This document shows, in pieces, positions 1,273-51,966 of a DNA stretch of 64,000 bases. The notes beneath the pieces were generated by a model, which was not told where the DNA came from, searched no databases, and saw only the letters and a program-made list of their open reading frames with translations. The position numbers were made by a program, and so were the translations under genes. Source of the DNA: Myroides phaeus (lineage in GTDB: Bacteria; Bacteroidota; Bacteroidia; Flavobacteriales; Flavobacteriaceae). The DNA is taken from positions 1-64,000 of the forward strand of contig NZ_FNDQ01000014.1 in NCBI RefSeq assembly GCF_900099675.1, written 5' to 3'. Every line of letters starts with the position of its first letter. Within the stretch, counting starts at the first letter, position 1.

Positions 1273-2445
1273 CTATTTGTTTGCAAACATCTCAACATCT
1301 TGTTTTGAAACCTCTTTGCCTCCTAAAATAATTAATCTTTCTATTACGTTTCTTAACTCACGAATATTACCTGTCCAATCGTACTCTTGCAAAAGACTAA
1401 TAGCTTCTGCTGAGAATGTTTTCGGACTTGTACCTTGTTCTTTTGCTATCTGACTTACGAAGTGATTTACCAATAAGGGAATATCATCACGTCTATCATT
1501 TAGCCCTGGAACCTCAATTAAGATAACTGCTAATCGGTGATATAAATCTTCTCTAAATCTACCTTCTGCAATTTCTTTTCGCAAGTCTTTATTTGTTGCA
1601 GCAATTACGCGTACATCTACTTTTAAATCCTTTTCTGCCCCTACTCTTGTAATCATATTCTCTTGTAATGCTCTTAACACTTTTGCCTGAGCAGACAAAC
1701 TCATATCTCCAATTTCGTCTAAGAAAATAGTTCCTTTATTAGCAAGTTCAAATTTACCTGGTCTATCTTTCACAGCAGAAGTAAATGCTCCTTTGACGTG
1801 ACCAAATAATTCACTTTCTATTAATTCAGAAGGAATAGCAGCACAGTTTACTTCAATCAAAGGGTTTTGTGATCTTGTACTTTGTAAGTGTAATTGATGA
1901 GCTACTAACTCTTTTCCTGTTCCATTAGGACCAGTAATCAATACTCTCGCTTCAGTTGGAGCTACCTTCTCAATCATATCTTTTATAAGGTTGATAGGCT
2001 CACTATTCCCTATCATCTCATATTTCTTACTCACTTTCTTTTTCAAGATTGTGTTTTCAACAACCAATTTACTCGTATCTAAAGCATTTCTAACAGTTGT
2101 TAATAATCTATTCAAATCTGGTGGTTTTGATATATAATCAAAGGCTCCAAGACGCATTGTATTAACTGCTGTCTCTAAGTCCCCGTGACCGGATATCATT
2201 ACAAAAACCACTTCTGGTTTTATTTTCTTTGCCTCAACTAACAGTTCCTCACCGTCCATCTTTGGCATTTTTATATCTGAAATAACTAAATCATAATCTT
2301 CACTTACGATTTTCTTCAAAGCCTCTTCTCCGTTTTCTGCTGAATCAACAACATAATCAGACGACTCTTCTTCTAATATTTTAACTAAGACTCTGCGAAT
2401 TGACGCTTCATCTTCAACTATTAAAATCTTTGACATTTTCCCCAT
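1273..2445 (-). CDS. Sigma-54-dependent response regulator (NtrC family) lacking an HTH
   Basis: A two-domain regulator. The receiver occupies residues 5-120, with acidic pair E11/D12, phospho-acceptor D57 and K107. The AAA+ domain occupies ~145-375, with Walker A GPNGTGKE (172-179) and Walker B GTIFLDEIGD (238-247). The sigma-54 contact loop reads GAFTSA (219-224) instead of GAFTGA. The protein stops just after the AAA+ helical lid, so the Fis-type DNA-binding domain of NtrC/AtoC proteins is missing. It would activate RNAP-sigma54 when phosphorylated, possibly without a fixed enhancer. A start at 2436 (Met4, preceded by GGGGAAA) is equally plausible. It lies between an ABC exporter and the DEAD-like gene. 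No histidine kinase is in the window. Confidence 0.9.
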   Translation of the reverse strand: MGKMSKILIVEDEASIRRVLVKILEEESSDYVVDSAENGEEALKKIVSEDYDLVISDIKMPKMDGEELLVEAKKIKPEVVFVMISGHGDLETAVNTMRLGAFDYISKPPDLNRLLTTVRNALDTSKLVVENTILKKKVSKKYEMIGNSEPINLIKDMIEKVAPTEARVLITGPNGTGKELVAHQLHLQSTRSQNPLIEVNCAAIPSELIESELFGHVKGAFTSAVKDRPGKFELANKGTIFLDEIGDMSLSAQAKVLRALQENMITRVGAEKDLKVDVRVIAATNKDLRKEIAEGRFREDLYHRLAVILIEVPGLNDRRDDIPLLVNHFVSQIAKEQGTSPKTFSAEAISLLQEYDWTGNIRELRNVIERLIILGGKEVSKQDVEMFANK

Positions 2446-4894: not shown

Positions 4895-6028
4895 CTAAGA
4901 AAACATTTCCTTTACTTTTTCAAAAAAAGATTTTTCACTCTTCGAAGGAGCTGGTTGGAAGTTCTCATCTTCCTTCATACTCTCGAAAAATGCACGTTGT
5001 TCTTTTGTAAGTTTTTTAGGAGTCCATACATTCACGTGTACTAACAAGTCTCCGTTACCATAGCTATTCAAGCTTGGTAGTCCCTTACCTTTCAAACGCA
5101 ATATTTTACCAGATTGAATTCCTTCTTCTAACTTAATGCGCACTCTTCCATTAACAGCATCAATCTCTTTTGATCCTCCTAATGCAGCTTCAGCAAAGCT
5201 AATATATAAGTCATAATGAAGATTTTCACCTTCTCTTTTTAATGTTTCGTGTTCTAATTCTTCAATCACAACAAGTAAATCACCTGGTACATTATTTTTA
5301 CCTGGTGCTTCATTACCTTTTCCTGAAACTTTCAATTGCATTCCTTCAGATACCCCTGCTGGAATTTTGATTGATACTGTTTCTTCATTAAGAATTAAAC
5401 CATCTGCATCAGCACCTGCTGGTTTGTGATCCATAATCTGACCACTTCCGTGACAAGCACCACAAGGAGATGCAGTTTGCATACGTCCAAATACAGTATT
5501 CGCAATCTTAGTTACCTGACCAGAACCATTACAAGTTGGACAAGTTTTATAAGTTACTCCTTGTGCTTGAACTTTGCGTTTAACTTTTATTTTCTTTTCA
5601 ACACCATTAGCGATGTCTTCTATAGTTAACTTCACCTTAATTCTAAGGTTAGCTCCTTTCACTCTACGTTGACCTCCGCCTCCGCCGAAACCTCCAAAGC
5701 CACCTCCGCCTCCGAAAGCACCTCCAAAAATATCACCGAATTGGCTAAAGATGTCATCCATATTCATATGGCCTCCGCCGAAGCCTCCGCCACCGCCAAA
5801 TCCGCCATCAAATGCAGCGTGACCATATTGGTCGTATTTAGCTTTCTTATCAGCATCACTTAATACTTCATAAGCTTCTGCAGCTTCTTTAAATTTCTCC
5901 TCAGCTTCTTTATCACCTGGATTTTTGTCTGGGTGAAATTCAATCGCTTTTTTGCGGTAAGCCTTTTTAATTGCTGCCGCATCTGCACTTTTATCTACAC
6001 CAAGTATTTCGTAATAATCTTTTTTCAT
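4895..6028 (-). CDS. dnaJ: Chaperone protein DnaJ (two-repeat zinc domain)
   Basis: Hsp40 co-chaperone that delivers clients to DnaK and stimulates its ATPase. J domain 1-68 with HPD at 32-34, Gly/Phe-rich linker ~72-122, then a cysteine domain and the C-terminal substrate-binding domains. The cysteine domain has only two CxxCxGxG motifs (CPTCNGSG and CGACHGSG) instead of the usual four. This corresponds to repeats 2 and 3, so zinc centre I is missing and centre II is kept. I recall the same layout in other Flavobacteriaceae, so it is probably a clade trait and not decay. It follows grpE by 36 bases and is co-transcribed from the heat-shock promoter upstream of grpE. Confidence 0.96.
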
Positions 6029-6064: not shown

Positions 6065-6616
6065 TTATTGTCCAATTACAACTTTAGGGAAACGAATAAT
6101 CTTCTCTCCTAATTTATATCCTCTTTCAATTACATCAACAATTTTCCCTTTCATATCATCTCCTGCCGGAATTTGTGTCACTGCTTCTGCCACATCTGCA
6201 TCAAAGTTATCTCCTGCTTTCAAAGCTACTTCTTCTAATCCTTTGCTTGACAATGTATCTTTGAACTTGTTTGAGATTAATTTAATTCCTGTTAAATGAT
6301 CACTTTCTCCGTGTTTTTCTAACTCAGTTACTGCACGATCAAAGTCATCCATTACAGGTAATAAAGCTGACATAACTTCTTCTCCTGCTGTTTTAAACAA
6401 CTCAATACGCTCTTTAGCAGTTCGTCTCTTATAATTCTCAAATTCAGCAAATAAGCGAATAAATTTATCTTTTTCTTCAGCCAATTTTATAGTCATTTCT
6501 TCTTCAGCGCTTAATTGCTCAGTTGTACCTTCTGCAGCTGCTCCTTCAGTCGTTTGATCTACATCTTGTTGAATTTCCTCTTGCTCTTTGTTTATATCTT
6601 TGTTCTCAGTATTCAT
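6065..6616 (-). CDS. grpE: Nucleotide exchange factor GrpE
   Basis: A 183-residue GrpE that promotes ADP release from DnaK. A low-complexity acidic/Gln-rich N terminus (1-45) is followed by a long helix with KFIRLFAEFENYKRRTAKER, the typical dimerisation segment. The C-terminal beta domain ends in GEKIIRFPKVVIGQ. It is the first gene of the grpE-dnaJ pair. The upstream region carries a 13-bp palindrome and a -24/-12-like element described separately. dnaK itself is not in the window. Confidence 0.96.
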   Translation of the reverse strand: MNTENKDINKEQEEIQQDVDQTTEGAAAEGTTEQLSAEEEMTIKLAEEKDKFIRLFAEFENYKRRTAKERIELFKTAGEEVMSALLPVMDDFDRAVTELEKHGESDHLTGIKLISNKFKDTLSSKGLEEVALKAGDNFDADVAEAVTQIPAGDDMKGKIVDVIERGYKLGEKIIRFPKVVIGQ

Positions 6617-6656
6617 AGTTTAGACAAATTAAATTTTATAATTTACACTCACTAAA

Positions 6657-6698
6657 TAGCAAATCCTTTGCCAACTTGCTTTCTCTGTCATAATGACA
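6657..6698 (-). promoter_or_regulatory. Composite heat-shock promoter of grpE-dnaJ (sigma-54-like element plus palindrome)
   Basis: On the minus strand, 6674 to 6657 reads TTGGCAAAGGATTTGCTA. This has the GG-N10-GC spacing and the TTGGCA/TTTGCT halves of a sigma-54 -24/-12 promoter, and predicts a start near 6648. Exactly 11 bases upstream is the perfect 13-bp palindrome TGTCATTATGACA (6698-6686). The same arrangement precedes htpG. Factor assignment is inferred. Confidence 0.55.
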
Positions 6699-6774
6699 TT
6701 TTTTAGTCAGTTAGTAAAATTCTATCCTACTGCTATTTACTCTTCTTTCTTCCTAAAAACAACTACCTATGAAA

Positions 6775-6800
6775 CAAAAAAATGTGCCTAAGCACATTTC
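6775..6800 (-). terminator. Terminator after the epimerase gene
   Basis: An 8-bp stem (6780-6787 with 6792-6799), four-base loop, then six T on the minus strand, directly after the stop at 6802. Confidence 0.75.
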
Positions 6801-6801
6801 T

Positions 6802-7707
6802 CTATTTATATATGTCTTGCAAAGCAGTCTTTAATTCGCAATAGTTAAACACATATCCTGCTTTTTCAATTTTTGCACTACTTACGCGTTGTCCTTCTAC
6901 AACAAGTACTGCTTTTTCTCCAATTACCATTTTTAAAACCCATTTAGGTACTGCTGGTAACAAAATCTTTTTATTCAAAACCTTTGACAAGCGAATGGTA
7001 AATGATTTATTTGTTTCTGGTTTTGGAGCAACGGCATTGTAAACACCTTCTTTTTCGTGTTTTGTCAAAAACAAAAATATACCTACTAAGTCTTTAATAT
7101 GTATCCACGAATAAAACTGCTTTCCATCTCCTAATACACTTCCCATATACCAATTAGTCATCTTGGCAATTTGAGGTAAAGCTCCTCCTTCTTTAGCAAG
7201 AACCAAACCTATGCGTACTAAGCTCACTTTAACTCCTATTTCTTGAAATTTCAAATTAGCAGCCTCCCATTGAGAAACAACACTTCCCAAGAAATTATCT
7301 GCTTCAAAATACTGTTCTTCACTTTGCCACTTACTACTATTTGCATAAAGGCCAACAGCAGATGAACAAACAATCTGTTTAACAGAATGTGTTTTTTTAG
7401 CCAACTGCTCGTAAATAAAATTACTGGGAACAATACGGCTTTCTACTATCTTCGCTTTTCCCGTTTTTGACCACGATTCCGAAATATTTGACCCCGCTAA
7501 ATGTATGATGGTATATACCTCATCAAAAGCCTTTTCTTCTATCTCTCCTTTGTAAGGATTCCAATAAAAGCCTTTTGCTCCAATAAACACACCTTCTTTC
7601 TTCTCTTTATTAGTTGTTAGGTAATTGACTTCATATCCCTCTTCTAATAGTTTATGCACCAATTGCTTTCCTATCAATCCAGTCGCACCTGTAACTAAAA
7701 TACGCAT
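6802..7707 (-). CDS. TIGR01777 family NAD(P)-dependent epimerase (SDR39U1/YfcH-like)
   Basis: A 301-residue extended short-chain dehydrogenase-like protein. The N-terminal Rossmann motif is TGATGLIG (~7-14), with IIHLAGSNI near 90 and SSAVGLY near 115, matching the TIGR01777 subfamily. A DUF1731-like C-terminal segment carries PAVPKWVLKM. Substrate is unknown. Family members have been linked to cell division and oxidative stress only indirectly. The DUF4442 gene lies six bases upstream, so the two are probably one transcript. Confidence 0.88.
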   Translation of the reverse strand: MRILVTGATGLIGKQLVHKLLEEGYEVNYLTTNKEKKEGVFIGAKGFYWNPYKGEIEEKAFDEVYTIIHLAGSNISESWSKTGKAKIVESRIVPSNFIYEQLAKKTHSVKQIVCSSAVGLYANSSKWQSEEQYFEADNFLGSVVSQWEAANLKFQEIGVKVSLVRIGLVLAKEGGALPQIAKMTNWYMGSVLGDGKQFYSWIHIKDLVGIFLFLTKHEKEGVYNAVAPKPETNKSFTIRLSKVLNKKILLPAVPKWVLKMVIGEKAVLVVEGQRVSSAKIEKAGYVFNYCELKTALQDIYK

Positions 7708-7713
7708 AGTCTC

Positions 7714-8169
7714 TTATTTTTTAACCTTCAATGTCCACTCAAAGTTCATAACAGAAACTTGCTCTCCTTTCTCATTTTTACCAATAGATTTCATCCATAC
7801 TGTAACACCTTCCCCAGTAGCAATCGCCTTAGCAATCGCTTCGTCTAATAACGCTCCATCAACGCATTCAAAGTAAATACGACCGGTTGCTTTTTTGGTA
7901 AACGAACTATTGTTGTTAGCAACTAACATCGATATCTTCTGTCCGCTCTCTTGTATTTTTCTCATTACTAAAGCTCCAGTTGATAATTCTGCCGCCATAG
8001 CTTGTACTGCAAAATACATTGATCTAAACGGATTTTGATTTACCCATTTATGCTTAACTGTAGTAACAGCAGTAGTGTTACTAATCTCTTTCATACGCAC
8101 TCCTGTCCAATAAGCAGAAGGCAATTTGAAAAATAAAAACTTATTTATGTTTGAAACTGTAAACTCCAT
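7714..8169 (-). CDS. DUF4442 hotdog-fold protein (PaaI-thioesterase-like)
   Basis: A 151-residue protein. The N-terminal helix plus NPFRSMYFAVQAMAAELSTG at ~45-65 is typical of DUF4442, a branch of the hotdog thioesterase superfamily. No substrate can be named. It is upstream of, and nearly contiguous with, the SDR39U1-like gene, suggesting a shared role in acyl or redox metabolism. This is inference from position only. Confidence 0.8.
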   Translation of the reverse strand: MEFTVSNINKFLFFKLPSAYWTGVRMKEISNTTAVTTVKHKWVNQNPFRSMYFAVQAMAAELSTGALVMRKIQESGQKISMLVANNNSSFTKKATGRIYFECVDGALLDEAIAKAIATGEGVTVWMKSIGKNEKGEQVSVMNFEWTLKVKK

Positions 8170-8482
8170 TCTTTTAGATTTTTACTAAATATACAAAAAA
8201 AGTTGAATGATTTACTTTCTTCATTTTTTCCTGTAAATACACTTTTTTAGACTTATATATCTTCTTTTAAAAGGGGGTAAATTACTTTCAAACCAAAATA
8301 TATATATCTAATATTCTACTTGACACAAAATAATCTTCTTAATCCTGAAATAATTAAAACTGCCTAAAACAAAAGACAATACAAAAACAAAATATTAATA
8401 ACCAACAAGTTATAACCTAAAAACACTCCTTACAGAAGTATATTCCTTTTTTTACAACTGTTAAATACTTGTTAATTTACAG
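8170..8482. other. Divergent intergenic region, AT-rich
   Basis: About 310 bases between the divergent DUF4442 and padR genes. Apart from the operator and promoter listed next, I see only AT-rich sequence with no hairpin or ORF worth reporting. Confidence 0.5.
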
Positions 8483-8501
8483 TACTATGTAATACAAAGT
8501 A
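8483..8501. promoter_or_regulatory. Probable PadR operator
   Basis: The 19-bp TACTATGTAATACAAAGTA is a near-perfect palindrome. Arms TACT-n-TGTA and TACA-n-AGTA match at all positions except three (5, 10, 15), and the flanking G/C pair at 8482/8502 extends it. It is centred 24 bases upstream of the -7 box, over the -33 position, ideal for autorepression by the PadR protein encoded just downstream. Confidence 0.6.
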
Positions 8502-8515
8502 CCTGCTTTTAGATA

Positions 8516-8523
8516 TATCTTTG
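8516..8523 (+). promoter_or_regulatory. -7 box of padR-pspC
   Basis: TATCTTTG fits the Bacteroidetes TAnnTTTG -7 consensus. It lies 28 bases before the padR start, so transcription would begin near 8530. No TTG is seen at the -33 position, which is occupied by the palindrome. Confidence 0.6.
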
Positions 8524-8551
8524 CATAAGAAACAAAGACCAAGAAGTAATT

Positions 8552-8881
8552 ATGAATATAGAAAACACTAAAGCACAAATGCGCAAGGGAATTTTAGAGT
8601 TTTGTATTCTTTCTATTTTAAAACAGAAAGATTGCTATACCTCTGAAATACTGGATGAACTAAAAAGCGTAAAGCTGGTTGTTGTTGAAGGAACTGTTTA
8701 TCCTTTACTAACACGACTTAAAAACGACGATTACTTGTCTTATCGATGGGAAGAATCTGTCTCTGGTCCTCCTCGCAAGTATTACAAACTAACAGAAAAG
8801 GGAGAAGAGTTTTTAAACGAACTTGCTAAAACCTGGTCTGAACTTGCAAATGCAGTAGAAGCTATAACCTCAAAAAACTAA
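8552..8881 (+). CDS. PadR family transcriptional regulator
   Basis: A 109-residue winged-helix repressor. The MRKGILEFCILSILKQKDCY start, the EGTVYPLLTRLKNDDYLS recognition region and SGPPRKYYKLTEKGEE wing are diagnostic of PadR. It lacks the long C-terminal dimer arm of classical PadR (subfamily 2, ~110 residues). It is four bases upstream of the pspC gene and very likely controls this operon through the palindrome at 8483-8501, responding to membrane or envelope stress in related systems. Confidence 0.93.
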   Translation: MNIENTKAQMRKGILEFCILSILKQKDCYTSEILDELKSVKLVVVEGTVYPLLTRLKNDDYLSYRWEESVSGPPRKYYKLTEKGEEFLNELAKTWSELANAVEAITSKN

Positions 8882-8885
8882 CACG

Positions 8886-10403
8886 ATGAACAAAACATTA
8901 ACTGTAAATATAGGTGGATTAGTATTCCACATTGACGAGAATGCTTACCACAAATTAGACCGCTACTTACAAGCGATCAGACGTACCTTCGCTCAGGAAG
9001 AACAAGATGAAATTATTCACGATATCGAAATAAGAATAGCTGAATTATTCAATGAGAAAATTACAGATACTAATCAAGTAATTACAGAGAGCAACGTAGA
9101 GGAAGTTATCAATATTATGGGAAAACCTGAAGATTATATCCTTGACGATGAAGAAACTATAAAAACAGAATACATCTACACTGGACAAAAAAAGCTATAC
9201 AGAGATACAGATAGAGGTGTTATCGGAGGTGTATTAGCTGGTTTAGGACATTACTTCAAAATTGATGTTGTTTGGATTAGAATTTTATTCGCTTTTTTAT
9301 TGGTATTCTACGGAACAGGTGTATTACTATACTTAATCTTATGGATTATAATTCCTGCTGCAAGGACTACTTCTCAACGTTTAGAAATGGAGAGAGAACC
9401 TATCAATATTGAGACTATTGAAAGAAAAGTTAAAGAGAATGTTTCTTATGTTACTAATAAAATCAACGATATTGATTATGATAACATCAAAAGGCAAACT
9501 CAAGTAGCAGGGGAAAAAAGTGGTAAGTGGATTAGATATATATTTGGTATTGGGTTCATCGCTTTTAGTGCAATTAATTTATTAACGATTATAATTGCTG
9601 CCATTGGAGTGTGGGTAAACAAAGATTATATCTTAGCTGAAACAGCTGCTGAAGGGGTTCCATTCTTTTTATTCTCTGAAGCAAACTATGGTAGAACAAT
9701 AGCATTAGCATTTATGTTAGTTACCTTGCCATTTATTGGATTATTAATTATTGGATTGCGTTTAATCTACACCAATATCAAATATGTAGCGGCTACAATT
9801 ATCTCGTTAATTATTATCTGGTTTATTACATTAGGACTATTTGCTATTCCGTTTGCCAATGCTAAGAACTGGGAAGATTTAGGCAATCAAATGGACAGAC
9901 AACGCGTGGAGAGACAAACTAACTTTACCTTTTACGATACAGATAGTTTAAACATCAAATTTGTTGACGCTGCTTACTTTAATTCAAATCGCACTACTAC
10001 TGATGGCTTTGAAGTAATAGACACAGCAAACACATTGCCAATTGAAATAGAATTACTACCTTCTTTTCAAGATGAAATCTACGGAAAAGTATCGGGTACT
10101 AACTTTGCTGAGGCAAGATATACAAAGAAAGGAAGACAGTCTGAATTAGTCTATTCTAATGAAATACAAGCTATTCAGTTTGAACAAAAAGACAATGTAC
10201 TATTAATAGCAAGTAGTTTCAATAATAACAAAACATCAGAGGCTAAACTAAAATACTCTATTTACATCCCACAAGGAAAAAGTGTTTATATCAATGAGGT
10301 AGTGAAAGCAGCTTTGATTGACCAACAACAAGTAAATGAAGCTAATCATTGGTATAAAATGCAAGAAGACCAAACCTTAACTTGTGTTGATTGCTCCCTT
10401 TAA
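8886..10403 (+). CDS. PspC domain-containing membrane protein
   Basis: A 505-residue protein. The N-terminal ~75 residues resemble a HAAS-like signalling segment with a conserved FHIDENAYHKLDRYL. The PspC domain spans ~105-165, with GVIGGVLAGLGHYF and a TM hairpin. Four further TM segments fall between ~215 and 330, and a C-terminal beta-rich extracytoplasmic domain follows. Pairing with a PadR repressor is a standard Bacteroidetes arrangement and replaces the PspA/F system of enterobacteria. Likely role: sensing or buffering envelope stress. Confidence 0.88.
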   Translation: MNKTLTVNIGGLVFHIDENAYHKLDRYLQAIRRTFAQEEQDEIIHDIEIRIAELFNEKITDTNQVITESNVEEVINIMGKPEDYILDDEETIKTEYIYTGQKKLYRDTDRGVIGGVLAGLGHYFKIDVVWIRILFAFLLVFYGTGVLLYLILWIIIPAARTTSQRLEMEREPINIETIERKVKENVSYVTNKINDIDYDNIKRQTQVAGEKSGKWIRYIFGIGFIAFSAINLLTIIIAAIGVWVNKDYILAETAAEGVPFFLFSEANYGRTIALAFMLVTLPFIGLLIIGLRLIYTNIKYVAATIISLIIIWFITLGLFAIPFANAKNWEDLGNQMDRQRVERQTNFTFYDTDSLNIKFVDAAYFNSNRTTTDGFEVIDTANTLPIEIELLPSFQDEIYGKVSGTNFAEARYTKKGRQSELVYSNEIQAIQFEQKDNVLLIASSFNNNKTSEAKLKYSIYIPQGKSVYINEVVKAALIDQQQVNEANHWYKMQEDQTLTCVDCSL

Positions 10404-10475
10404 AAGGAAACCAACACGTGTTATGATAAAATATTTTTCAATTATTACCCGTAGTTTTTACAAACTATAAACCAC

Positions 10476-10515
10476 AAAAAAAGGGAAAGAAGTACAGTAC
10501 TTCTTTCCCTTTTTA
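10476..10515. terminator. Bidirectional terminator between pspC and ompA genes
   Basis: A long stem (aaaaagggaaagaagta and its complement) across 10476-10515, with A-rich 5' and T-rich 3' flanks on both strands. It sits between convergent genes and can serve both. Confidence 0.85.
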
Positions 10516-10533
10516 CTTTATGAGAAAACTCAA

Positions 10534-11235
10534 TTAACGAACACCAGATTCGTTTTGAGCATCTTGAATCATTTTTTCGTTAGCACGAATACCAAACTCT
10601 ACACGTCTATTAAGAGCTTGTCCTGCTTTAGTCTCGTTAGAAGCAATTGGATCAGCAATACCAAAACCATCTGCAACCATACGATTAGCAGCAATACCTT
10701 GTTGAATTAAGTATTGTTTTACAGAAGCAGCTCTCTTTTTAGATAAACTTAAGTTGTACTCTTCTCTCCCTGTAATATCAGTATATCCGTAGATATCAAT
10801 ATATGTATCTGGGTTTTCTTTAAATACTTTAACTAATTTATCAAGATTTGCTTTTGCTTTTGTAGTCAATGTAGCAGAGTTAATATCAAAGTTTACAGAG
10901 TTTTCACCCAATACTAATTTGATACCCTCTCCAACTCTTTCAACTTGTGCACCTGGAACAGTTTGCTCAATTTGACGAGCTTGTTTATCCATTTTGTTTC
11001 CGATTACTCCTCCTGCAGATCCACCGATAACTCCACCTAAAACAGCACCAAGAGCTCCGTTTCCACCTTTACCAATGTTATTTCCTAAAATACCACCAAT
11101 AATAGCTCCACCAGCTGCCCCAATTGCAGCACCTCTTTGTGTCTTGTTTGAATTCTGTACAGCTTCACATCCAGTGAAAGTAAAAGAAGTTGCAAGCAAT
11201 GTACCTGCTAATACAAACGTGGTTACTTTTTTCAT
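10534..11235 (-). CDS. OmpA family lipoprotein with glycine-zipper segment
   Basis: A 233-residue outer-membrane lipoprotein. Lipobox FTGC with Cys23, a glycine-zipper segment at ~34-80 (repeated GAAGGAIIGG-like units) and a C-terminal OmpA peptidoglycan-binding domain at ~105-215 containing YGYTDITGREEYNLSLSKKR. It resembles E. coli YiaD. Expected role: tethering the outer membrane to peptidoglycan. The lipocalin-like gene ends upstream with a 20-base gap, so the pair may be co-transcribed. Confidence 0.92.
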   Translation of the reverse strand: MKKVTTFVLAGTLLATSFTFTGCEAVQNSNKTQRGAAIGAAGGAIIGGILGNNIGKGGNGALGAVLGGVIGGSAGGVIGNKMDKQARQIEQTVPGAQVERVGEGIKLVLGENSVNFDINSATLTTKAKANLDKLVKVFKENPDTYIDIYGYTDITGREEYNLSLSKKRAASVKQYLIQQGIAANRMVADGFGIADPIASNETKAGQALNRRVEFGIRANEKMIQDAQNESGVR

Positions 11236-11255
11236 CTTACTTATTTTTTATTTTT

Positions 11256-11714
11256 TTAGTTTTTTTCGAAATGATATGTCACATCATAAGTTTGTCCTCC
11301 TGCGTAGAATTTATCCACAAGTTCAAACGAATTTGCGGTTTGATTTCTCACTTGCATCGAGTATCCTGTAGTAACGTGTTTCGCTTTTACACCCTCATCT
11401 ACAAACTTAAATTCGAAACTTCCGTTTGGTGTTACTGTCCATTTGAACGAGCTTTCAAAGCTTGGACAATTTCCTCCTTGAGTTAAAGCTACGTTTCCTG
11501 AATTATTGTTTGAAACAAACTTCCACTGACTACCAATAAAACATTGAGAGTCTGCAATATTGAAAGAGTTTACTTTCACAAATTCACCACCAATATGTTT
11601 GATATTTGTCAATGTCCAATTCCCCTTAATTCCAACTTGTGATTTTGTATCCATTGTTGGTTTACAAGACGCCATTGCTAACGCTACAGCTCCAAATAAT
11701 AATACTTTTTTCAT
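11256..11714 (-). CDS. Lipocalin-like lipoprotein
   Basis: A 152-residue lipoprotein (lipobox MASC, Cys17) with a lipocalin-like small beta-barrel domain. It begins GNWTLTNIKH near residue 31 and ends in a DVTYHFEKN strand. Ligand unknown. The gene precedes the OmpA-like lipoprotein on the same strand. The family call is from overall pattern and GNWTL motif. Confidence 0.75.
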   Translation of the reverse strand: MKKVLLFGAVALAMASCKPTMDTKSQVGIKGNWTLTNIKHIGGEFVKVNSFNIADSQCFIGSQWKFVSNNNSGNVALTQGGNCPSFESSFKWTVTPNGSFEFKFVDEGVKAKHVTTGYSMQVRNQTANSFELVDKFYAGGQTYDVTYHFEKN

Positions 11715-11795
11715 ATCTCTTTTTTTTACATTAAATACATAGTTACAAAATGTATACCCAAAAATAGTGAATATTTAAACACTCTGACTTAAATC

Positions 11796-11835
11796 TGACA
11801 AAATGACACTCTAAATCCTTTGGTATCTTTTTTGT
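11796..11835 (+). promoter_or_regulatory. Composite heat-shock promoter of htpG (same architecture as grpE)
   Basis: TGACAAAATGACA (11796-11808) matches the grpE palindrome at 11 of 13 positions. It is followed after exactly 11 bases by TTGG-N7-TTTGT (11820-11835), giving GG-N10-GT spacing like a -24/-12 element. The -12 C is replaced by T, so the sigma-54 match alone is imperfect. The identical geometry to grpE is what makes it notable. Confidence 0.45.
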
Positions 11836-11889
11836 CCTAAGTACATCACAAAAATATTAAAAATTCAAATACTAAATAAACATACAATT

Positions 11890-13746
11890 ATGACATCTGG
11901 AAAAATTAACGTTACAGTGGAGAATATATTCCCACTTATTAAAAAGTTCTTGTACAGTGACCATGAAATTTTTTTAAGAGAGTTAATATCTAATGCTACT
12001 GATGCTACTTTAAAATTAAAGCATTTAACAAGCATTGGAGAAGCAAGCGTTGAGTATGGAAACCCTATTATTGAGGTAAAAATCGACAAAGAAAACAAGA
12101 AACTTCACATTATCGACCAAGGTATTGGTATGACGAAAGAGGAAGTTGAAAAATATATCAATCAAGTTGCTTTCTCAGGTGCTGAAGAATTCCTTGAAAA
12201 ATACAAAGATTCTGCTAAAGACACAGGAATTATCGGACACTTTGGTTTAGGTTTCTACTCTGCTTTTATGGTAGCTGATAAAGTTGAAATTTTAACTAAA
12301 TCTTTCAAAGATGAGCCTGCTGCACATTGGACTTGTGATGGTAGCCCTGAGTACACTTTAGAGGATTGTGATAAAACGTCAAGAGGTACTGAAATTATTT
12401 TACACATTGCTGAGGATTCTTTAGACTTCTTAGAAGAGTCTAAAATCAGCGGACTTTTAACGAAGTACAACAAATTTATGCCTGTGCCAATTAAATTTGG
12501 TACACACGAAGAAGGTGAAGGTGATGATAAAGTTGTAGTAGATACAATTATCAACAACCCTAACCCAGCTTGGACAAAACAACCATCTGAATTAACGGAT
12601 GAGGATTACAAAAACTTCTACCGTGAGTTATATCCAATGCAATTTGAAGAGCCATTGTTCCACATTCACTTGAATGTTGACTTCCCATTTAACTTAACGG
12701 GTATTCTTTACTTCCCTAAGTTGAGTGCTGATCTTCAAATGCAAAAAGACAAAATCCAGTTATACCAAAACCAAGTGTTTGTAACGGATAACGTAGAAGG
12801 TATTGTTCCTGAATTCTTGACAATGTTAAAAGGAGTAATTGACTCTCCAGATATTCCATTGAACGTATCAAGATCTTACTTACAAGCAGACGGAAACGTG
12901 AAAAAGATTTCTAACTACATCACACGTAAAGTAGCTGATAAGTTGAAATCTTTATTCAACGAAAACAGAGCTGACTTTGAAGCAAAATGGAACGACATTA
13001 AAATCGTTTTAGAGTACGGAATGTTATCTGAAGATAAATTCTATGAAAAAGCTGGTGCTTTTGCTCTTTACCCAACGGTAGATAACAAATACTATACTTT
13101 AGAAGAATTAAAAGAAGCTACTAAAGCCAACCAAACTGACAAGGATGGCAACTTAGTAATTCTTTATGCTTCTAATAAAGATGCACAACACAGCTATATT
13201 GCTGCTGCAAAAGATAAAGGATACGAAGTAGTGTTACTTGACTCTCCTATCGTTTCTCACTTAATCCAAAAGTTAGAAAGCGATAATGAGAAAATGACTT
13301 TTGCTCGTGTAGATGCTGACCACATCAGCAACTTAATCAAAAAAGAAGAAACAGAGATTTCTAAACTTTCTGAAGATGAACAAAAATCATTACAAGAAAT
13401 CGTAGAAAACATCGTTCCTAAAGATAAATATACAGTGAAGTTACAAGCTATGGATAGCACAGCTGAACCATTTATCATCACACAACCTGAGTTCATGAGA
13501 AGAATGAAAGAAATGAGCCAATCAGGTGGTGGCGGTATGTTCGGTATGGGTAACTTGCCTGAAATGTACAATGTAGTTGTAAATACAAACTCTGAGTTGG
13601 CAAGTAACATTATCAACAATACTAATGAGGAAGAAAGAACAACAAACATTAAACAAGCAATGGATTTAGCTAAACTTTCTCAAGGTTTATTAAAAGGAGA
13701 AGAACTTACTGAATTCGTAAAAAGAAATTTCAACAAATTGAAATAA
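11890..13746 (+). CDS. htpG: Molecular chaperone HtpG (Hsp90)
   Basis: A 618-residue cytosolic Hsp90. The N-terminal GHKL ATPase domain shows FLRELISNATDA (E-N catalytic and binding residues), DQGIGM and GHFGLGFYSAFMV. The middle domain contains SRSYLQAD, and the C-terminal dimerisation domain runs to residue 618. A Gly/Met-rich linker with GGGGMFGMG appears near 546. The start is the ATG at 11890 following an AT-rich leader. The gene is monocistronic, with its own terminator and a heat-shock-type promoter shared in design with grpE-dnaJ. Confidence 0.97.
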   Translation: MTSGKINVTVENIFPLIKKFLYSDHEIFLRELISNATDATLKLKHLTSIGEASVEYGNPIIEVKIDKENKKLHIIDQGIGMTKEEVEKYINQVAFSGAEEFLEKYKDSAKDTGIIGHFGLGFYSAFMVADKVEILTKSFKDEPAAHWTCDGSPEYTLEDCDKTSRGTEIILHIAEDSLDFLEESKISGLLTKYNKFMPVPIKFGTHEEGEGDDKVVVDTIINNPNPAWTKQPSELTDEDYKNFYRELYPMQFEEPLFHIHLNVDFPFNLTGILYFPKLSADLQMQKDKIQLYQNQVFVTDNVEGIVPEFLTMLKGVIDSPDIPLNVSRSYLQADGNVKKISNYITRKVADKLKSLFNENRADFEAKWNDIKIVLEYGMLSEDKFYEKAGAFALYPTVDNKYYTLEELKEATKANQTDKDGNLVILYASNKDAQHSYIAAAKDKGYEVVLLDSPIVSHLIQKLESDNEKMTFARVDADHISNLIKKEETEISKLSEDEQKSLQEIVENIVPKDKYTVKLQAMDSTAEPFIITQPEFMRRMKEMSQSGGGGMFGMGNLPEMYNVVVNTNSELASNIINNTNEEERTTNIKQAMDLAKLSQGLLKGEELTEFVKRNFNKLK

Positions 13747-51390: not shown

Positions 51391-51966
51391 TTATGATTCC
51401 TTACGAGGAATCCACTTTACTTCTTCAGCACCCAAATCAAAAGTCAACTTTCGTGCCAACACAAATAGATAGTCAGAAAGTCGGTTTAAATACATTAAAA
51501 CAGACTCATCTATAGGCTCAACCTCATTCAATTGTACTGACAGACGCTCTGCTCTGCGACAAACACATCTGGCAATATGACAGAATGACACTGTCGTATG
51601 CCCACCTGGTAACACAAAATGGGTCATAGGTGATAGGGCTTCTTCCATTCTATCAATTTCATTCTCTAATAACGCCATATCTGCCTCGCTTATTTTTGGA
51701 ATATTTAAGCGTTCTTTTCCATTTTTCAGAATTGCTTTCTCCGGATCAGTAGCTAAAACAGCTCCAACAGTAAATAACCGATCTTGTATTTCTATCAAAA
51801 CATTTTTATACAATTGATTTATTTCTTGATCTCGAATTAATCCTATATAAGAATTCAATTCATCTACTGTCCCATAACTTTCTATGCGTATATGATGCTT
51901 TGGAACACGCGTTCCTCCGAACAATGCCGTAGTTCCTTTATCTCCTGTTTTTGTATATACTTTCAT
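51391..51966 (-). CDS. Cob(I)yrinic acid a,c-diamide adenosyltransferase (PduO type)
   Basis: A 191-residue enzyme that makes adenosylcobalamin from cob(I)alamin and ATP. N-terminal ATP site MKVYTKTGDKGTTALFGG, then SYGTVDELNSYIG, and C-terminal CRRAERLSV plus NRLSDYLFVLAR. All conserved PduO motifs are present. It may supply cofactor for methylmalonyl-CoA mutase or the B12-type radical SAM protein elsewhere in the window. No cobalamin riboswitch is visible upstream. Confidence 0.94.
   Translation of the reverse strand: MKVYTKTGDKGTTALFGGTRVPKHHIRIESYGTVDELNSYIGLIRDQEINQLYKNVLIEIQDRLFTVGAVLATDPEKAILKNGKERLNIPKISEADMALLENEIDRMEEALSPMTHFVLPGGHTTVSFCHIARCVCRRAERLSVQLNEVEPIDESVLMYLNRLSDYLFVLARKLTFDLGAEEVKWIPRKES

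Follow-up and report, generated by a model that had tools for sequence, protein, structure and literature searches.

A putative position-locked operator at probable sigma-54 promoters of chaperone genes in Myroides phaeus and other Bacteroidia

The window analyzed here is a stretch of 64,000 nucleotides (nt) of the Myroides phaeus genome (NCBI RefSeq assembly GCF_900099675.1, contig NZ_FNDQ01000014.1, positions 1 to 64,000 of the forward strand), in which the regions preceding grpE-dnaJ and htpG share a composite promoter. These two sites are quite probably promoters of one chaperone regulon that depends on sigma-54 (RpoN), and the dyad upstream of each of them is most likely bound by a bacterial enhancer-binding protein (bEBP) whose gene is linked to miaB, outside of the window. 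Judged by their conservation, the matching signals are a real, strongly conserved control switch of chaperone genes across the class Bacteroidia. Sigma-54 control of these chaperone genes is already published for Flavobacterium psychrophilum, according to the accessible text of that study (PMC9723704); the position-locked operator and its likely protein, the miaB-linked bEBP, are new as far as the literature search reaches. The features of the two promoters and their genes, in window coordinates and with the promoter elements read directly from the DNA, are:

4895..6028, minus strand: dnaJ coding sequence (Pfam DnaJ and DnaJ_C), one unit with grpE
6065..6616, minus strand: grpE coding sequence (Pfam GrpE, 5.5e-35)
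6659..6674, minus strand: -24/-12 element of the grpE promoter, TTGGCAAAGGATTTGC, 11 nt after TGTCATTATGACA
6686..6698, minus strand: putative grpE-dnaJ operator, TGTCATTATGACA (TGTCA-TTA-TGACA), dyad centre near -45
11796..11808, plus strand: putative htpG operator, TGACAAAATGACA (TGACA-AAA-TGACA), dyad centre near -45
11820..11835, plus strand: -24/-12 element of the htpG promoter, TTGGTATCTTTTTTGT, 11 nt after TGACAAAATGACA
11890..13746, plus strand: htpG (HSP90) coding sequence (Pfam HSP90, 1e-43)

Direct reading places both elements at the coordinates and on the strands given in the original prediction, with the 11-nt gap between the 13-mer and the downstream element in both leaders, the TGACA ending of both 13-mers, and the sequences GG-N10-GC (grpE) and GG-N10-GT (htpG), all as claimed; the agreement between the two 13-mers, given as 11 of 13 positions, is 10 of 13 on recounting. 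The 13-mer is better read as TGNCA-N3-TGNCA, since the middle base of each half varies among relatives. The layout common to both sites is this dyad, followed by 12 nt, TGG, and a G ten bases past the GG, such that the GG-N10-G spacing of sigma-54 -24/-12 elements is present at both. From the usual sigma-54 spacing, the transcription starts are predicted near 6647 for grpE and near 11847 for htpG.

In the M. phaeus genome the exact composite occurs only at these two sites, and the reversed control pattern does not occur (0 places). The dyad alone is not enriched (22 places versus 19 for the reversed pattern), so the signal is carried by the fixed combination of the dyad with the -24/-12 element. 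The dyad was therefore rejected as a genome-wide marker; several of its matches lie inside genes or in terminator-like hairpins, and those at window 47221 (a hairpin) and 51570-51590 (inside a reading frame) were dropped. Also rejected, as a regulon list, was the element TTGGCN7TTGC alone, which has 25 places versus 6 for the reversed pattern, but with 20 of the 25 inside open reading frames longer than 100 aa.

The conservation of the composite is seen in a family set of 41 genomes, one per genus, in which GrpE was located by its family model and the leaders were taken without regard to the motif. The exact composite is found in 38 of the 41 grpE leaders, and in 39 when one mismatch is allowed; in the remaining two (L066 and L197) the spacer is one base longer, and L197 also has an imperfect half. 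When the 39 leaders are aligned, the TGG and the G at -13 are invariant (39/39), and the information per column is 1.97 and 1.87 bits for the two halves of the dyad, 0.82 for the 12-nt spacer, and 0.50 and 0.41 for the flanks. A genome-wide scan of the 41, tolerating up to one mismatch, gives 105 places versus 2 for the reversed pattern, and 96 of the 105 precede grpE (39), dnaK (32) or htpG (25, that of M. phaeus included). The 39 grpE places lie 48-176 nt upstream of the GrpE match, on the same strand. The 65 places other than those of grpE and of the M. phaeus htpG were all fetched (32 dnaK, 24 htpG, 9 other); among the 9 others are one clpB, one secA and one hsp20, all confirmed by Pfam, and 6 that are unexplained or due to chance. 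In the htpG leaders of relatives, TGG[C/T]A-N6-TTG occurs at the same place, and the register of the operator is kept in the 24 loci of other genera. This conservation across genera and the specificity for certain genes, far above the reversed control, bear out the original view that the sharing is unlikely to be due to chance.

The same pattern is seen in narrower and wider samples, for which genes were named by eye from N-termini, by tblastn against the M. phaeus proteins, or by Pfam, depending on the set. Among 22 members of the genus and order, a scan tolerating one mismatch yields 37 places versus 6 reversed, distributed over 21 of the 22 genomes; the 30 places that were examined precede grpE (12), htpG (8), dnaK (1), clpB (3), miaB (2), secA (1) and none of these (3). 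In a phylum sample of 198 genomes, the exact composite is present in 37 of the 49 genomes of the class Bacteroidia versus 2 of the 149 outside the class, and the reversed control is 0 throughout. Examination of 48 of the 56 places in this sample shows 42 before htpG, grpE or dnaK, 3 before a thioredoxin gene, 1 before hsp20 and 2 before neither (L232 and L468); as for the other 8, those of M. phaeus (2), G062 (2) and G022 (1) are covered by the narrower scans, and those of G187 (1) and G199 (2) were left out. The thioredoxin genes belong to three Bacteroidia genomes outside the order (L462, named by Pfam; L465 and L466, by eye). The hsp20 place (L469) is an exact composite in G099, outside the class, where the relative of the miaB-linked bEBP scores only 441 bits; because of this composite, the chaperone circuit may predate the class. 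The search before other chaperone genes that had been proposed with the original prediction thus finds the motif at dnaK, clpB and hsp20, and at groES with a weaker distal half, and it also finds it throughout the class in the leaders of grpE and htpG orthologues. A dedicated chaperone regulon using sigma-54 and a promoter-proximal operator, as originally suggested, is supported, but its limitation to Flavobacteriaceae is not, as the spread is class-wide.

With respect to the polymerase, RpoN (PF04552) is present in all 31 genomes considered, being M. phaeus and 30 relatives. The invariant part common to the grpE, dnaK and htpG leaders is the sigma-54 spacing, which for dnaK and htpG is partly a result of choosing these leaders by the motif. 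The sigma-54 consensus has a C at -12 (GC). This C is present in the M. phaeus grpE promoter and absent from its htpG promoter, and it is found in 32 of 39 grpE, 1 of 32 dnaK and 3 of 24 htpG leaders. The T at -12 of htpG, which was pointed out originally, is indeed there, but it is no oddity, since relatives have A in 27 of 32 dnaK leaders and A or T in 21 of 24 htpG leaders. In agreement with a sigma-54 promoter, the accessible text of the F. psychrophilum study assigns the mapped 5' ends of groES, lon, dnaK, grpE, htpG and clpB to a sigma-54 motif, SM4 (PMC9723704).

The groES leaders, available for 30 of the 41 family genomes, were missed by the composite search because the distal half of the dyad is degenerate. 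TG[T/A]CA precedes TGGCA in 29 of the 30, at a distance of N12 in 27 and N13 in 2. In 14 of these 29 leaders, another 20-22 or 30-31 bp upstream, or two or three helical turns away, there is a second, full dyad; within 250 nt no second dyad is found in 38 grpE, 32 dnaK and 24 htpG leaders. Most of the upstream groES dyads sit inside the apparent terminator hairpin of the preceding gene (for example L370, L373, L381 and L397). Such a terminator-like hairpin containing a full dyad, so that one sequence may act as both terminator and operator, is also listed for M. phaeus on contig C53 near 78685; as a candidate for the groES element itself, the match at C53:78685 was rejected as a terminator-like hairpin, the true element being the proximal TGTCA before TGGCA. 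A single-half pattern has 7 places in the M. phaeus genome, two of which are dnaK and groES; the other five are inside long open frames (on either strand) and were dropped as chance matches. An additional site in this genome (L002, G000:C13:65120-65132, minus strand) has a TGCCA-N3-TGTCA dyad, 10 nt, and TTGGC overlapping a sigma-A box; the protein encoded downstream of it is presumably similar to a zinc metallopeptidase.

The candidate for the protein that binds the dyad is one of four full-strength sigma-54 activators of M. phaeus:

G000:C53:80606-81886, outside the window: gene of a receiver-less bEBP, between miaB and lptE, near groESL

Its protein has an AAA+ domain (PF00158, 1e-66) and an HTH_8 domain (PF02954, 5.1e-14) and no receiver, and because of the missing receiver it is presumably another factor that keeps it off. 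The GAFTGA loop is present, and either GAFTGA or GSFTGA is found in all 13 parsed orthologues. The helix-turn-helix (HTH) segment ELGISERTLYRK is invariant in 14 orthologues, in line with what an equally invariant operator would lead one to expect. In the AlphaFold model (mean predicted local distance difference test score, pLDDT, of 74.6), the AAA+ domain (residues ~1-260) is followed by a helical pair (279-326), a disordered linker (327-383) and the HTH (385-427), with the C-terminus from residue 391 onward at pLDDT 86-91. Its relatives in the PDB are NtrC-family regulators, FleQ, ZraR and PspF.

An orthologue of this protein is present in all 49 class genomes, with scores of 542-744 bits; elsewhere in the phylum sample no score exceeds 480 bits. 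It is found in 14 of 14 small or medium genomes examined, and in four reduced genomes (G025, G028, G029 and G065) no other PF00158 protein reaches E < 1e-20, with RpoN confirmed in G025, G028 and G029. Composite places in these genomes precede grpE in G028, htpG in G029, and grpE and dnaK in G065; the single composite place of G025 precedes no chaperone gene. The bEBP operon also carries the operator. From 80 collected loci of the miaB-linked bEBP, 36 of 39 miaB leaders were counted, and TGNCA-N3-TGNCA is found upstream of miaB, the operon head, in 31 of the 36, versus 0.02 expected per 250 nt. Two further leaders, beyond the 31, have the operator as well (L293, whose start was mispicked in the count, and L318, which is too short to count), and in L342 it is found 53 nt upstream of the gene for the bEBP. 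In most cases the miaB operator closely precedes a sigma-A box (for example TATCTTTG), around the -33 region. The other named genes of the operon are miaB, lptE and secG, none of which is a transcription factor.

These observations can be arranged in the following mechanism. The dyad near -45, locked 12 nt upstream of the TGG, would be the binding site of the miaB-linked bEBP, which, bound beside the polymerase, would remodel the closed sigma-54 complex and thereby switch on grpE-dnaJ, dnaK, htpG and groESL, and in various species also clpB, hsp20, secA and thioredoxin. Negative autoregulation is suggested by the operator that closely precedes the sigma-A -7 box in the operon of the bEBP itself, headed by miaB. 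As to the signal, it may be guessed that the bEBP is kept inactive by chaperones and set free once these are diverted to misfolded protein. Binding of the bEBP to the dyad, autoregulation and the response to heat are inferred, and the label 'heat-shock' would follow from the gene content, the genes being those of chaperones. About even weight can be given to the more far-reaching proposal that the cytosolic chaperone response of Bacteroidia runs via one receiver-less bEBP that is position-locked at -45 with a fixed helical phase, does not loop, represses its own sigma-A miaB operon and is probably gated by chaperones, and that this is a new type of heat-shock master switch, older than the class split.

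Several points weigh against the assignment of both promoters to one sigma-54 regulon served by this bEBP. The support comes from sequence conservation, and shared descent confounds the co-distribution of composite and bEBP and could explain part of it. Because the motif itself served to pick the dnaK and htpG leaders, the counts free of bias are those of grpE and groES only, and with one mismatch allowed the reversed control is sometimes sizeable, as for the 22 genus and order members. The base at -12 departs from C in dnaK (A 27, T 4, C 1; n=32) and in htpG (A 12, T 9, C 3; n=24), and 32 of the 39 grpE leaders have TAnnTTTG, a sigma-A -7 box, in overlap with the -12 element. For groES, no such promoter is found in one of the 30 leaders (G053, L390), those of G025, G028 and G065 have a -24/-12-like element with no clear dyad in register, and in M. 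phaeus itself both dnaK and groES carry the proximal half only, TGTCA with N11 instead of N12. The operator is lacking in 5 of the 36 miaB leaders as counted (L293 is among them through its wrong start), and in the loci named Bacteroidales no operator was seen by eye close upstream of the bEBP gene. The fixed site at -45 is itself odd for a bEBP, since the usual bEBP works through DNA looping from a more distant upstream site.

This last point also favors the idea that the sigma-54 promoters are correctly identified while the dyad binds a different protein, a repressor or co-activator, with the bEBP acting from solution or from a distant site. Repressors and class-II activators, more than looping bEBPs, typically have their sites at such a place, 12 nt from the -24 element with the centre at -45, and the absence of a second dyad within 250 nt in the grpE, dnaK and htpG leaders points in the same direction. 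This arrangement is nevertheless considered unlikely, in view of the dyad heading the operon of the bEBP, where the other named genes do not encode transcription factors, of the conserved HTH of the bEBP, and of the helically phased second dyad in about half of the groES leaders (14/29). Far less likely still is that the activator is the response regulator encoded in the grpE-dnaJ neighborhood of the window:

1273..2445, minus strand: second sigma-54 activator gene (Pfam Response_reg, Sigma54_activat and AAA_lid_14; no HTH), downstream of dnaJ

The gene is close downstream of grpE-dnaJ, it is within ~6 kb of grpE in G034, G038, G050 and G058, and it adjoins dnaJ in G023 and G034. However, its protein has no DNA-binding domain and has GAFTSA as its loop, with the second G of GAFTGA also missing in 8 of 10 parsed orthologues, and it is absent from the reduced genomes G025, G028, G029 and G065, all of which except G025 have composites before grpE, dnaK or htpG. 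It is thus listed as a rival or accessory factor, and is possibly a sigma-54 activator with lost or changed activity. The gene also adjoins an ABC transporter.

It is also conceivable, at a probability slightly lower again, that the promoters are of the ordinary sigma-A type (TTG, spacer, TAnnTTTG), accompanied by a regulatory dyad, and resemble sigma-54 promoters by accident. In the 32 grpE leaders with the overlapping box, TAnnTTTG ends at the same G, which fits such a promoter, but the box is in that register in none of the 32 dnaK and 24 htpG leaders and is absent from the grpE leader of M. phaeus; moreover, sigma-A promoters give no reason for the invariant TGGCA, and the F. psychrophilum starts are assigned to a sigma-54 motif in the text accessible (PMC9723704). 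Chance similarity or a general conservation of leaders would agree with the lack of enrichment of the 13-mer alone in the M. phaeus genome, but it has next to no probability left, being already refuted by the scans of family and phylum genomes, in which conservation is gene-specific, crosses genera and far exceeds the reversed control, with flanks and spacer much less conserved than the dyad. The sigma-54 regulon with the miaB-linked bEBP as the protein at the dyad is the preferred reading.

To our knowledge, the control of chaperone genes in Bacteroidota is poorly known. Co-ordinate control of dnaK, grpE and groESL is a property of HrcA with its CIRCE operator (TTAGCACTC-N9-GAGTGCTAA) and of RpoH (sigma-32). 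CIRCE was not found in 141 loci, the best match having 4 mismatches of 18 (5 in the window), the HrcA and RpoH genes themselves not being searched for. The gating of the bEBP by chaperones, which is a guess, would follow the same logic as that of HrcA and GroEL. With PspF, the phage-shock bEBP and a sequence relative in the PDB, the miaB-linked bEBP shares an AAA+ domain with a Fis-type HTH, the missing receiver and a stress regulon. PspF is restrained by PspA and its sites are more distant from the promoter, on the upstream side; unlike this, the site is promoter-proximal here and the targets are cytosolic chaperones.

Within the accessible text of the F. psychrophilum study, SM4 is the same kind of promoter, found before groESL, lon, dnaK, grpE-dnaJ, htpG and clpB with mapped 5' ends, no operator is named, three PF00158 activators are left unassigned, and the list of sigma factors is without sigma-32 (PMC9723704). 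A scoring-matrix survey of sigma-54 regulons reports GroEL, GroES, GrpE, DnaJ, DnaK and IbpA as enriched behind Bacteroidota sigma-54 promoters and, in its accessible part, assigns no activator (PMC12316311). Beyond SM4, the operator, its fixed spacing, the class-wide spread and the candidate activator are added here. The operator, its rigid position, the class spread and the assignment of the activator were not found in the literature searched, with most subscription papers outside its coverage.

Between grpE and htpG, the window further encodes a regulator of the PadR family and a large protein with a PspC domain (8552-10403, plus strand).

The proposed circuit is complete and testable, consisting of one sigma factor, one operator, one candidate activator, defined targets and predicted transcription starts, and the class to which it would apply includes dominant human gut and aquatic bacteria. 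Among bEBPs, one that acts from a fixed site next to the promoter would be an unusual variant. Should the rigid spacing prove functional, the view that bEBPs are enhancer proteins acting independently of distance would also be challenged.

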